DNA of 43,140 bases from NCBI GenBank assembly GCA_003584005.1, contig QXHL01000024.1, positions 1 to 43,140 on the forward strand. Direction: 5' to 3'. The notes under the pieces are model-generated. The model did not search any database, was not told the DNA's origin, and saw nothing but the letters and a program-made list of their open reading frames with translations. A program made the position numbers and the translations under genes. Below, piece after piece: positions 1-41,515 of the stretch; the first letter of the stretch is position 1, and each line of letters starts with the position of its first letter. The stretch is from Alicyclobacillaceae bacterium I2511 (lineage in GTDB: Bacteria > Bacillota > Bacilli > Alicyclobacillales > Alicyclobacillaceae).

Positions 1-127
1 TGTCCATAGCAGCTTACGGTGGTTTGAAACCTCCACCTGTATGGCGGTTTCGAGGGGCCCTCCCTCATCTTCGGCAAAGCATAGCTCAAGTCACCTTCTC
101 AGCCGACCTGAAACTTTCGTGGCGCAC
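1..127 (-). other. Putative 5' end of a second (inner) group II intron, running off the window
   Basis: On the minus strand the reverse transcriptase reading frame of the neighbouring intron stops matching its family right after the YADD codons, and the next bases are GTGCGCCACGAAAG, which fits the GUGYG start of group II introns. The remaining bases to the window edge are non-coding in the frame of the reverse transcriptase. The simplest reading is a nested intron inserted in the YADD region of the host intron ORF. The rest of the inner intron, including domain V and any ORF, would lie left of this window, so the call rests on the 5' motif and the sharp loss of homology only. A deletion junction is the alternative. 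Confidence 0.5.
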
Positions 128-884
128 AATCATCGGCATAGCGAATCATGTACGCTTTTCCTAAACATTGCGTACGTACGGCCTTCTCAAACCACAAATC
201 CAGGACATGGTGTAGATACAGATTTCCCAATATTGGCGACACTAGACCGCCTTGCGGTGTACCGGAGCCAGATTCTCGCCACGTTCCATCCTCCATGATG
301 CCTGCTTTCAGGAATCGATGGATAAGTCGTAGGAGCGACTTGTCAGCTATACGGTGTGCTAGGAATTTCATGAGCCACGGGTGGTCCATGTGATCAAAGA
401 AGCCCATGATGTCAGCATCAACAACATAGTTTATCTTCTTCGTGATGAACAAGTGATTCAGCGTCTTGAGCGCATCATGTGCTCCACGTTGTGGCCTGAA
501 ACCATAAGACACATCCAAAAAGTCAGCTTCGAAGATTGCGGTAAGAATCTTGCTCACCGCTGACTGAACCAGCTTATCTTCGTACGCAGGTATTCCGAGC
601 GGGCGCCGTTTGTGCGAACCCGGTTTCGGGATGTACGTCCTTCGAACAGGTTGCGGTCTGTACGCTTGACTTCTCAGTCGTTCATGCAATCTGCCAAGGT
701 TGGTTTCAAGGTTCCCGTCGTATTCCGCCTTTGTGACTCCGTCCACGCCGGATGCCCTTTTGGCCTTCTGCTCCGTGTGACACTGCTTGAGCATCTCAAT
801 ATCCAACAAATGGGCGAGTGAGGTGAATCTGCTAGTTGGTTGTGTTCGCGCAATTTCCGCTATCCTTGCCAGTGCTGTTGACAA
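128..884 (-). pseudogene. ltrA: Group II intron reverse transcriptase/maturase, N-terminal part, interrupted at YADD
   Basis: The product begins at a TTG codon with MSTALARIAEIARTQP, the usual start of bacterial LtrA-type intron proteins. It shows the RT fingers and palm in order: YIPKPGSHKRRPLGIPAYEDK at about residues 85-105, SYGFRPQRGAHDAL near 126-140, VVDADIMGFFDHMDH (first catalytic Asp) near 155, GTPQGGLVSPILGNLYLHH near 209, and IRYADD (catalytic Asp pair) near 247. After YADD homology ends and a stop follows within about ten codons. The thumb, maturase and any endonuclease domains are missing, against about 420 residues or more for complete members. The protein would normally splice its own intron RNA and drive retrohoming. 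It could only be made whole if the inner element splices out of the transcript. Confidence 0.9.
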
Positions 885-1381
885 CCGAATTCCACCTCTG
901 TGTGTGGGGATTGTTTCCCTCGCAAGGGTGATTTCATGTTACGGCCTTCTCTCCATCAGCATTACCCGACTTCGCAGATACTACGCCGTAATCCGACTCC
1001 CCATCGTCGTTTGACCGCCTCACTTTGTATCGCTTGTTGGTCATACTCCTTCATGGAGAACGCATGGGGTCTCCCGAGTTCCCGTTGAATCGCAATGTGT
1101 AACGTGCCAAGGTCTCCGACCCCGGGGAGGCGACGATAATCTTGCCAATATCGATTTCGTCGTGTTGTCTTCTGCATGGGTCACAGCATCGACCCTCCCG
1201 TCTCATGACAAATTTCAGGGCTCAATTCCTTCAGCCTCTGGCTTTCGGCCCGTTACCTCACTGTCTACGCTTAAACCATATCAGTTGCCTGATAGGCTCC
1301 AAGACTCGCTTCAGGTGGCTGGCTATACCTTTCCTGACGGGCTTCCCACCCGTTCAATTCAACGACCTTGCTCGGCCGCAC
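885..1381 (-). ncRNA. Group II intron 5' ribozyme region (outer intron)
   Basis: This non-coding stretch upstream of the reverse transcriptase begins on the minus strand with GTGCGGCCGAGCAAGG at position 1381, a good match to the conserved intron 5' end. It is followed by paired-looking segments such as the AACGGGTGGGAAGCCCGT hairpin near 1355-1337, as expected for domain I. A 71-codon open frame inside it (962-1177) has no family match and is more likely ribozyme sequence. The 5' exon just outside is TTGACAAACGGGGC, which abuts the end of the IS3-family element, so the intron probably landed beside an IS end. No intron 3' end is visible because the window ends inside the nested insertion. 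Confidence 0.65.
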
Positions 1382-2682: not shown

Positions 2683-2934
2683 TTGACGGCAACAGAATTG
2701 CGGCACAAATTTGGCGAAGTGGTTGAGGGGCTTAAAACAGAACCGGTATTGGTGAAGAAAAGTGGGCGGCCTGTGGCCGTTATCTTGTCGTATGAGGCTT
2801 ATGAACGGTTCCAGGAGCTAGAGGATGCCTGGTGGGGTGAACAGGCACGCAAAGCGGCGACTGAAGGGTTTATGAGTGCCGATGAAACGACATCTTGGAT
2901 TGCGGAGCGACTGAATGAAGCTCCTACTGAGTAA
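2683..2934 (+). CDS. Phd/YefM-family antitoxin, 5' end trimmed by the IS
   Basis: The frame reads TATELRHKFGEVVEGLKTEPVLVKKSGRPVAVILSYEAYERF, the classic Phd/YefM N-terminal DNA-binding fold, followed by an acidic toxin-binding tail (EDAWWGEQARKAATEGFMSADETTSWIAERLNEAPTE). Family members usually have several residues before TATELR. Here the IS end at 2682 comes directly before the TTG codon, so the native start, ribosome site and promoter are probably gone. The antitoxin would neutralise the RelE-like toxin encoded next door, whose start overlaps this gene by 20 bases, and repress the pair. Whether a weak TTG start or an IS promoter now drives it cannot be told. Confidence 0.85.
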   Translation: MTATELRHKFGEVVEGLKTEPVLVKKSGRPVAVILSYEAYERFQELEDAWWGEQARKAATEGFMSADETTSWIAERLNEAPTE

Positions 2935-3184
2935 GGTAGCGCGTGACTTCCTGGATACATTGTCGCCAAAACAATTTCGTCAGGTTGTCACTACTGTTTT
3001 TCGGCTCTTGTCTGAGCCTTATCCACATGACTCAAAACAGTTGAGGGGATATCTCTACCATCGTGTAGACATCGGAGAGTATAGGGTTGTCTATGAGGGG
3101 GAGGGGGACGACCTTCGAGTTGTGCTGATTGGCAAACGAAATGACGATGAGGTTTATCGAATACTCAAGCGGACAAAGGGTTAA
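2915..3184 (+). CDS. RelE/ParE-family toxin
   Basis: The 89-residue protein MKLLLSKVARDFLDTLSPKQFRQVV shows the RelE/ParE fold: helices in residues 5-40, then LRGYLYHRVDIGEYRVVYEGEGDDLRVVLIGKRNDDEVYRILKRTKG, where GEYRVVY and the final KRNDDEVYR strand/helix match RelE-type mRNA interferases. These toxins cleave mRNA on the ribosome or, in the ParE branch, poison gyrase; the sequence alone does not decide. It overlaps the antitoxin gene by 20 bases, the normal coupled arrangement. The toxin is intact while its partner lost its 5' context. Confidence 0.88.
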   Translation: MKLLLSKVARDFLDTLSPKQFRQVVTTVFRLLSEPYPHDSKQLRGYLYHRVDIGEYRVVYEGEGDDLRVVLIGKRNDDEVYRILKRTKG

Positions 3185-39754: not shown

Positions 39755-41515
39755 CTACAGAACCATTGCTCTCCCCTTATAAACCAATCCCCGGTTGGCA
39801 TCAATGGTGACCCACTCGCCATCAGTAATCTGTGCCAGTGCACCCTTGGCCCCCACGATAACAGGCTTCCCCAAACTCAATCCCACCACCGCAGCATGGG
39901 AAGTCAGACCGCCCTCCTCAGTAATCAAGGCGACCGCCTTCTCGATAGCGGGAACCAGGTCCTTGTCGGTGGCTTTAGCCACTAGGACATCCCCAACCTG
40001 TACCCGGCCTAGCAAGTCTTCCCCTGGGCCACAAACCACCGCACGGCCACTCACAGATCCTGACCCGATACCAGTGCCCTGTACAATCACCTCACCGATG
40101 GTATGCACTTTTAGAAGGTTAGTGGTGCCTTGTTGGCCTACAGGCACCCCCGCAATAATTAAGACCAAGTCCCCATGTTGCACATATCCAGTTTCCAAAG
40201 CCTCGTGGACAGAAGTTTCTAAAACCTCATCCGTGGTTTGCACAGGGGGAATGATTACCGAATACACCCCAAAACTAACACTCAGTCGGCGAGCCACCTC
40301 TGCGCGTGGCGTCATGGCTATAATAGGAGCATTCGGTCTGTGCTTAGAAAGCATACGAGCCGTGTGCCCAGATGCTGTGGCCGCTAAAATAGCTTGAATC
40401 CCAAGTTCGTCCGTCATTGCCTGGGCGGCGTGACCGATGGCATCTGTGACCGTCTGGCCAGACACAACCACATGCCTGTCCACAACCTCATTTGCCTGCA
40501 ATCCTGCCTCAGATCGCAAAGCGATTTGCGCCATTGTGCGCACAGACTCCAGCGGATACCGCCCGGCAGCCGTCTCCCCACTGAGCATCACCGCGTCGGT
40601 TCCGTCAAAAATAGCGTTGGCCACATCTGTGGCCTCTGCTCGGGTGGGCCGGGGATTCCGCTGCATGGAATCGAGCATTTGGGTAGCCGTAATCACTGGT
40701 TTCCCAGCTCGATTGCACAGGGCAATCATCTTTTTCTGAGCCACAGGCACTTCCTCCGTAGGGACCTCAACCCCAAGGTCTCCGCGAGCTACCATAATAC
40801 CATCTGCCACTTCCACAATCTCTGGGAGACGGTCCAGCCCCTCCCGGGTTTCAATTTTGGCAAAAATGTCCGCATGATAGTGGTGTTCTTCTAAAATTCT
40901 GCGCACTTCCAAAACATCCGCCGCTTTACGCACAAAAGAGGCAGCAAATAAGTCCACACCCTGTTCTATCCCAAAACGCAAGTCTGCCGCATCCTTCTCC
41001 GTCACTCCAGGAATGCGGAGCGTTACACCGGGGACATTGATGCCCTTGTTGTCTTTTAGGGTGCCCCCATTGGTCACCGTGCAGTGAATGTCATGTCCAT
41101 CCACCCGGTTCACCACCATGCCAATGAGACCATCGTCTATGCGAATGGGGGCACCCGGATACACGTCCTCCACCAGTCCCTCGTAAGAAATCCAAACTCG
41201 TTTTGCGGTCCCGTACTCCAGTGGGTCGATGGTTAACACTAGTTCTTCCCCATCCTGCAGTTCTACCTGCCCCCCCTGAATCTTACCGGTGCGGATTTTT
41301 GGGCCTTTAATGTCCAGCATAATCCCGACATGCTTTCCAAGCTTTGCGGCTGCCTCGCGGATGCGCCGAATTCGTGCCCCGTGTTCCTCATAGGACCCAT
41401 GGGAAAAGTTCAACCTTGCCACGTCCAGACCCGCCTCAATCAAGGATGCCAACATTTCTGGAGACTCACTGGCCGGGCCAATTGTGCACACAATTTTAGT
41501 TCGTCTTCTTTGCAA
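39755..41515 (-). CDS. pyk: Pyruvate kinase with C-terminal PEP-utiliser domain
   Basis: The 586-residue protein starts MQRRRTKIVCTIGPASESPEML and has the ARLNFSHG motif (active-site Arg/Asn), IMLDIKGPKIRTG, DIFAKIETREGLD with the catalytic Lys, VARGDLGVEVP, and RAEATDVANAIFDGTDAVMLSGETAAGRYP. The extra C-terminal domain (about residues 475-586) with EDLLGRVQVGDVLVA and EEGGLTSHAAVVGLSLGKPVIVGA is the phosphohistidine-like domain of Bacillus-type pyruvate kinases. It makes ATP and pyruvate at the end of glycolysis. It is downstream of pfkA by about 57 bases, probably co-transcribed. Confidence 0.97.
   Translation of the reverse strand: MQRRRTKIVCTIGPASESPEMLASLIEAGLDVARLNFSHGSYEEHGARIRRIREAAAKLGKHVGIMLDIKGPKIRTGKIQGGQVELQDGEELVLTIDPLEYGTAKRVWISYEGLVEDVYPGAPIRIDDGLIGMVVNRVDGHDIHCTVTNGGTLKDNKGINVPGVTLRIPGVTEKDAADLRFGIEQGVDLFAASFVRKAADVLEVRRILEEHHYHADIFAKIETREGLDRLPEIVEVADGIMVARGDLGVEVPTEEVPVAQKKMIALCNRAGKPVITATQMLDSMQRNPRPTRAEATDVANAIFDGTDAVMLSGETAAGRYPLESVRTMAQIALRSEAGLQANEVVDRHVVVSGQTVTDAIGHAAQAMTDELGIQAILAATASGHTARMLSKHRPNAPIIAMTPRAEVARRLSVSFGVYSVIIPPVQTTDEVLETSVHEALETGYVQHGDLVLIIAGVPVGQQGTTNLLKVHTIGEVIVQGTGIGSGSVSGRAVVCGPGEDLLGRVQVGDVLVAKATDKDLVPAIEKAVALITEEGGLTSHAAVVGLSLGKPVIVGAKGALAQITDGEWVTIDANRGLVYKGRAMVL

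Follow-up and report, generated by a model that had tools for sequence, protein, structure and literature searches.

The 43,140-nucleotide stretch analysed here (hereafter the window) is the entire contig QXHL01000024.1 of the genome of Alicyclobacillaceae bacterium I2511, and its position 1 is a contig end. We propose that the sequence at this end is very probably the 5' half of a twintron, one group II intron nested in another, in which an RmInt1-like inner intron homed into the codons for the Tyr-Ala-Asp-Asp (YADD) motif of the outer intron's reverse transcriptase (RT) gene by means of a codon-reading RNA guide. An initial annotation of this DNA had suggested nested group II introns with an insertion at the YADD codons, and that suggestion is supported by further halves in the same genome (C203 and C201) and by complete twintrons in relatives such as L025. 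Here and below, C numbers are contigs of the I2511 genome (the window is C149) and L numbers are loci.

Nested introns in I2511 and its relatives

All intron parts of the window are read on the minus strand. The outer group II intron is represented by its 5' part, which fills positions 128 to 1381 up to the start of the inner intron and begins with GTGCG at 1381, exactly where the initial annotation had placed it; the RNA core, group-II-D1D4-6 (RF02005; 147.4 bits, E 2.4e-42, model positions 1 to 225 of 225), lies just inside, at 1110 to 1346. The N-terminal part of the outer RT gene is open from a TTG at 884 to the YADD codons (129 to 884). As annotated, it is normal up to the catalytic motif: it is intact to RYADD and matches positions 1 to 156 of the 205 in the PF00078 profile (E 2.1e-27). 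TIGR04416 scores 268 bits (E 9.4e-80), below its cut-off of 300, the gene being only partly present. The motif is spelled TAT GCC GAT GAT at 129 to 140, and these RT catalytic codons are the target of the inner intron. The T at 128 is the first base of the following codon, which the inner intron splits; the second intron start that had been annotated at 127, after the catalytic Asp codons, is correct and lies one base into the next codon. From the 5' exon into the intron the junction reads ...CGCTATGCCGATGATT^GTGCGCCACG, with the first G of the inner intron at 127 and that of the outer intron at 1381. The inner intron is represented by its first 127 nucleotides (positions 1 to 127), cut at the contig end; RF01999 (D1-D4-2) matches from 66 to 1 (54.5 bits, E 2.2e-8), its 3' side lost to the same cut. 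Both RNA matches exceed their gathering scores, and the GTGCG starts at 127 and 1381 fit a GUGYG 5' end. Since the outer intron matches RF02005 and the inner one RF01999, these are two introns of different Rfam types.

Besides RF01999, the identification of this short stretch rests on a second copy in the genome and on its likeness to a relative. Window positions 1 to 127 recur at the end of contig C203 (12448 to 12574; 100% identity) and have no further match in the genome; a search of the I2511 genome for the middle of the inner intron matched the C149 and C203 ends only. The outer intron on C203 differs from that of the window (68% DNA identity over the matched part, 60% RT identity), and the same codon is joined. 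The joining of one sequence to two different RTs at an identical codon position rules out a simple deletion or truncation junction at 127. A 3' side is present on C201, where the inner D5/D6 (RF00029, 49.8 bits, cut-off 40) precedes an intron end reading CTACTCACC. Two bases then complete the split codon, and the frame VCCFQYKKDAE...FDFLGF... stays open for about 180 codons and contains a GIIM domain. Downstream of this resumed outer RT, a D5/D6-like match for the outer intron scores 35.8 bits, below the cut-off of 40. The window itself stops at the contig end, and the domain V/VI and the outer RT continuation that the initial annotation proposed to look for are found on C201. In total, the genome holds two 5' halves (C149 and C203) and two 3' halves with inner-intron sequence (C201 and C195), either of which may belong to the 5' half in the window. 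A further outer RT C-terminus, with no inner intron adjoining, lies on C148. The RT on C221 was rejected as a candidate because its group II intron (RF02012 and RF00029) is a separate one.

The inner intron-encoded protein (IEP) is found at E ≤ 1e-60 in 5 of the 41 genomes of the family, I2511 included. The order of parts in L025 is outer D1-D4 (RF01998), outer RT to YADD, inner D1-D4 (RF01999), an inner IEP of 412 amino acids, inner D5/D6, the resuming outer RT and outer D5/D6. Its outer intron is of a different Rfam type from that of the window (RF01998 versus RF02005), and the inner-intron stretch of the window is 92% identical to its complete inner intron over 76 nucleotides. The YADD site is likewise used in L026 and L027, in other outer RTs, the IEP frame being broken in L027. 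Once the inner intron is left out, the outer frame is continuous in L025 to L027 and on C201. At the level of DNA, these loci show the nesting, its exact site, the same inner intron in different RTs and the continuity of the frame, and the frames on both sides fit a restoration of the outer RT by splicing. If the inner intron is spliced out, the two parts of the split codon would be rejoined and the outer RT restored; if it stays in, the outer RT would be cut at its active site. We infer both splicing in vivo and its effect on the outer element.

The L025 IEP carries PF00078 and PF08388 only, that is, RT and maturase domains and no endonuclease domain. IEPs from Sinorhizobium meliloti plasmids, possibly those of RmInt1 or RmInt2 among them, are 58 to 64% identical to it. 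In a tree of 58 IEPs, built without a curated class reference, the YADD-family IEPs are intermixed with the S. meliloti plasmid introns. By similarity, we provisionally name the inner introns class D/IIB3 (RmInt1-like). A rearranged copy at L028 (G006:C1, about 1380 to 1560) is an apparent chimera of outer RT to PQGG, a short insert and inner IEP from SPVLANLF, and looks like the product of recombination between the two nested RT genes.

Spread of the junction, proposed RNA guide and site choice

The exact junction was searched as the pattern TAYGCNGAYGAYNGTGYGYCACGA (YADD, one base, intron start), with the reversed pattern as a control. Of 398 genomes in the phylum, 6 contain it (I2511 among them; control 0 of 398), as do at least 119 stretches of a wider genome-contig collection and 2 viral contigs. 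Among the matches listed, the 120 genome-contig junctions (one stretch has two) come from 14 named phyla; 7 are archaeal and 2 have no phylum. We analysed 132 junctions: 2 from the I2511 genome, 3 from the family, 5 from the phylum search, these 120 and the 2 viral ones, with at least four loci counted twice. The upstream frame matches an RT model built from plasmid IEPs (E < 1e-3) in 111 of the 132, and 13 of the remaining 21 are, by eye, short, shifted or edge-cut RT frames. A class-D-like IEP follows in 73 of the 83 junctions with at least 1000 nucleotides beyond. By score the IEP is full-length at 60 of the 132, many others being cut off. A 3' end motif is recognised in 50 of the 73 junctions with an IEP match of at least 150 bits, and the RT C-terminus continues in frame (E < 0.01) on 35 of these 50 3' sides. 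This count includes repeats (L026/L066; L048/L087/L133) and L137, which we reject as a spurious continuation matching its own IEP; on inspection by eye, 11 of the other 15 3' sides also look like RT. The split codon encodes Phe at 21 of the 35, counting L137.

The hosts of the junction extend beyond intron-borne RTs. In L060 (1291 to 1302), an inner-type intron lies in a gene for a Peptidase_S15-family hydrolase that spells RYADD. This natural off-target suggests that the intron recognises its site by DNA sequence and not by gene family. On two viral or phage contigs, L166 (3359 to 4228) and L167 (5266 to 8367), an RT gene that does not look intron-borne is split at YADD. Its 5' part matches Pfam RVT_1 (E 2e-14) and its 3' part has no Pfam match; PADLOC RT models match the 5' part at 5e-33 and weaker and the 3' part at 1e-16, and from their names we take these models to be retron types. 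A search of viral contigs with the IEP returned 1 locus. The YADD junction is also present in 3 of 30 genomes searched from the genus Methanosarcina.

For the guide, the first 560 nucleotides of 70 introns were aligned (56 YADD introns with full exon, 1 without, and 13 at other sites), and each column was scored against the intron's own exon. One column stands out, the exon-binding site 1 (EBS1), which reads AGTCGTT (RNA AGUCGUU) in 46 of the 56 and TGTCGTT in 5, mostly about 250 to 270 nucleotides into the intron. EBS2, GCGTA (RNA GCGUA), is present in 52 of the 56 shortly before EBS1 (29 nucleotides in L025). EBS2 complements TAYGC and EBS1 complements GAYGAYT, which gives the target TAYGC-N-GAYGAYT. 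The guide has a G opposite the three synonymous pyrimidines in 53, 55 and 54 of the 56, forming 34, 34 and 20 G-T pairs. At the other exon positions from -13 to -3, pairing is Watson-Crick in 55 or 56 of the 56, except at -7, which is always G-T, and at -8, the fourfold base of the Ala codon, which lies outside both guides. Position -1 pairs with the first EBS1 base in 51 of the 56, a value matched by 1 of 10000 shuffles. The 10 introns that were not found by pattern all have GCGTA, together with AGTCGTT (8), TGTCGTT (1) or AGTCATT (1). At this place in the alignment, scores of 6 to 7 out of 7 with the intron's own exon are reached by 8 of the 13 introns inserted elsewhere. In the consensus structure derived from 18 YADD introns, EBS1 occupies a hairpin loop and EBS2 an internal loop, and 89 of the 132 base pairs have two-sided changes. 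The base after the target YADD is T in 100 of the 132 junctions, which is the base that EBS1 prefers. After their own YADD, the 47 readable inner IEPs have G in 46 cases, A in 1 and never T; the difference may protect the intron's own gene from insertion, or simply be due to the residue that is usual in this family. As the guide region of the inner intron is missing from the I2511 assembly, we infer the guide used there from relatives.

The mechanism that we propose would begin with a group II intron whose IEP is RmInt1-like and endonuclease-less homing into the RT gene of another intron, one base after YADD. Its lariat ribonucleoprotein would pair EBS2 GCGUA with TAYGC and EBS1 AGUCGUU with GAYGAYT; the guide G would accept either pyrimidine at the synonymous third positions, and between the two guides the Ala codon's fourfold third position would stay unpaired. 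The intron would then, presumably, reverse-splice into the target DNA and be copied. Any RT gene spelling Y-A-D-D would be a target, one that could hardly mutate without losing catalysis, and other genes would be struck where they happen to spell the same bases.

A sample that was not chosen by pattern, 25 plasmid loci picked from 487 records with an IEP match, has the YADD site in 8. Seven of these belong to the first 8 loci, which rank among those most similar to the L025 IEP, and one to the remaining 17. The tree of 58 IEPs contains 42 from YADD introns (mostly pattern-found) and 16 from introns at other sites; it needs 6 site changes versus 14.2 in shuffles, with 0 of 500 shuffles as low, and includes a clade of 23, mostly Bacillota, that are all YADD. 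Because the plasmid sample and the tree show mixed sites, YADD targeting is, as judged from sequence, a property of part of this intron family and not of all of it. The YADD introns are clustered on the tree and do not form one clade, so that the tree does not demonstrate a single origin.

Transposase-like Asp sites are used in 7 of the 17 non-YADD plasmid loci. In L168, L170, L172, L181 and L183, related introns immediately follow W-x-x-D or W-x-x-D-I of IS3-like orfB genes; HTH_21 is found in three of these genes and HTH_32 in two, below cut-off in L181. In L176 and L177 the intron directly follows VFIDE, and the split genes have no Pfam match; we take them to be IS630-like. The Asp beside the intron start in all seven is presumably the first catalytic Asp of DDE transposases.

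Alternative explanations

Several observations weigh against the twintron reading. The window carries 127 nucleotides of the inner intron only, without EBS and without IEP. Of the upstream frames, 8 of 132 look non-RT or unclear, among them L060 and the pattern match L155, which has no intron behind it, and 23 of the 73 IEP-bearing junctions have no recognisable 3' end motif. Most introns in the guide alignment (46 of the 56) come from a pattern search in which the exon letters were set and the guide letters free, and the 56 include near-copies. Among the 13 introns at other sites, four fail at the EBS1 column (L168, L170, L172 and L183, with scores of -5, -5, -5 and -3) and L173 is weak there (2.5). 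Finally, the local copy on C195 looks dead or degenerate, because its inner IEP matches PF00078 alone, with no GIIM domain found and 39 residues missing relative to L025, and because a normal D6 and the stretch that follows YADD are both missing between its D5 and the outer RT. This copy favours an explanation in which the inner intron homes into YADD and no longer splices here, a plain disrupter that would leave the outer RT permanently dead. We regard this as conceivable and rather doubtful: C201, in contrast, retains its inner D5/D6 and an outer RT frame that is open in the right phase, and relatives combine full-length IEPs with open frames on both sides.

The remaining alternatives question either the junction or its history. 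An ordinary truncated intron might have been joined to unrelated sequence at a contig end or in assembly. The junction does lie 127 nucleotides from the contig end, 127 is a usual assembler k-mer, and 30 of the 132 junctions (I2511's two included, one locus reached twice) lie 60 to 300 nucleotides from a true contig end. Junctions gather there because a repeated inner intron has this effect on an assembler, and the whole twintron is inside one contig in L025 and L026, as is the L186 junction inside a contig of 5.75 million bases. An artefact is thereby refuted for the family, and for the window its probability is close to negligible. Alternatively, the twintrons could be old, inherited or moved whole, with no repeated movement of the inner intron into YADD. 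In Singulisphaera, four copies are identical to one another both in their inner ends and in their outer RTs, a pair in ANME-1 GoMg1 agrees at 31 of 31 bases with outers 87% identical over 69 amino acids, and the outers of one Bacillus OV166 pair are 98% identical. However, near-identical inner ends (117 to 120 of 120, or 107 of 107) lie in outers of only 28 to 45% RT identity in five other genomes (Desulfogranum 30%, Clostridium CS001 45%, Bacillus OV166 42 to 43%, a planctomycete 28 to 39% and Parashewanella 39%), besides the 60% within I2511, and clustering at 60% identity divides 75 outer RT pieces into 34 groups. We therefore consider wholesale inheritance very improbable; the spread of the inner intron among related introns, which the initial annotation had expected, is borne out by these divergent outers. 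In Desulfosporosinus metallidurans (L159), two YADD junctions with different introns occur and one of them hits an inner-type IEP, a possible case of three-level nesting.

Known systems, implications and neighbouring features

Nested group II introns of Methanosarcina acetivorans were reportedly described by Dai and Zimmerly in 2003 (RNA 9:14). As in the window, insertion there is into the RT open reading frame (ORF) of another group II intron; the junction described here differs in occurring in 14 phyla (among the matches listed) and in a non-intron RT gene. That case may well be this same system, because a Methanosarcina genome (L186) has the YADD junction and both guide words, with the EBS1-like and EBS2-like words about 260 and 231 nucleotides into the intron. 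In Methanosarcina, repeated homing of introns into the ORFs of other introns is in print (PMC4424553). The twintrons of Thermosynechococcus elongatus resemble ours in having identical inner introns in diverged outers, which their authors read as independent insertions; those inner introns, however, have no ORFs, and their site is not YADD but the interval from the first to the second start codon of the outer ORF (PMC2882425). RmInt1 and RmInt2 of S. meliloti (IIB3/class D) have an endonuclease-less RT-maturase and retrohome by pairing of EBS with intron-binding sites (IBS). The inner introns share the type of IEP, judging by the L025 domains, and, by sequence, the EBS-guided target pairing, whereas the targets of RmInt1 and RmInt2 are insertion sequences (ISRm2011-2, ISRm17) and not RT genes (PMC5894124). 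Group II introns are also known to split phage genes (PMC12350094), as in L166 and L167; in the accessible part of that paper the word twintron is absent and no RT is named as a split gene, whereas L166 and L167 split a retron-like RT at YADD. Waldern et al. 2020 is cited in a further paper (PMC8919778) where it treats the nesting of introns in other mobile elements, group II introns included. Bacterial twintrons and archaeal intron-into-intron homing are thus already known; in the literature searched, where most subscription papers were missing, we found no mention of a YADD-directed lineage, of its wide specialisation or of a guide that reads codons through wobble pairs.

Read most broadly, these introns would be a cosmopolitan lineage whose RNA guide in effect reads a protein motif, the Tyr-Ala-Asp-Asp codons in any RT, intron-borne or not. 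The lineage would then be a general RT parasite, and catalytic Asp codons in the enzymes of other mobile elements may be what this intron class specialises in more widely. We consider this broad reading about as likely as not. Targeting of this kind would explain how a mobile element keeps a lasting supply of targets, by aiming at the least changeable stretch of its rivals. A guide with G at wobble positions would be a simple design to strike a protein motif in many genomes and could serve in programmable group II introns. Our results also suggest that some group II RTs annotated as truncated and ending in YADD are interrupted rather than broken. A contig that ends about 100 to 130 nucleotides behind YADD, as at 19 of the 132 junctions, would be a sign of such an interruption.

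Other features of the I2511 genome were recognised by eye. Directly upstream of the outer intron, the window has an IS3-like element at 1415 to 2627 (frames of 299 and 100 amino acids), followed at 2683 to 3184 by a small gene pair that resembles a toxin-antitoxin module of RelB/Phd and RelE type. On C148, at about 40000 to 41500 (L011/L018), a CRISPR-like array of a repeated unit with unique spacers lies near an outer intron fragment that was apparently cut by an insertion sequence. On C225 (L020, 3736 to 3806), a sub-threshold D5/D6 match of 37.2 bits lies between repeated genes that look like surface-protein genes, a setting reminiscent of the alternatively spliced S-layer intron of Clostridium tetani.
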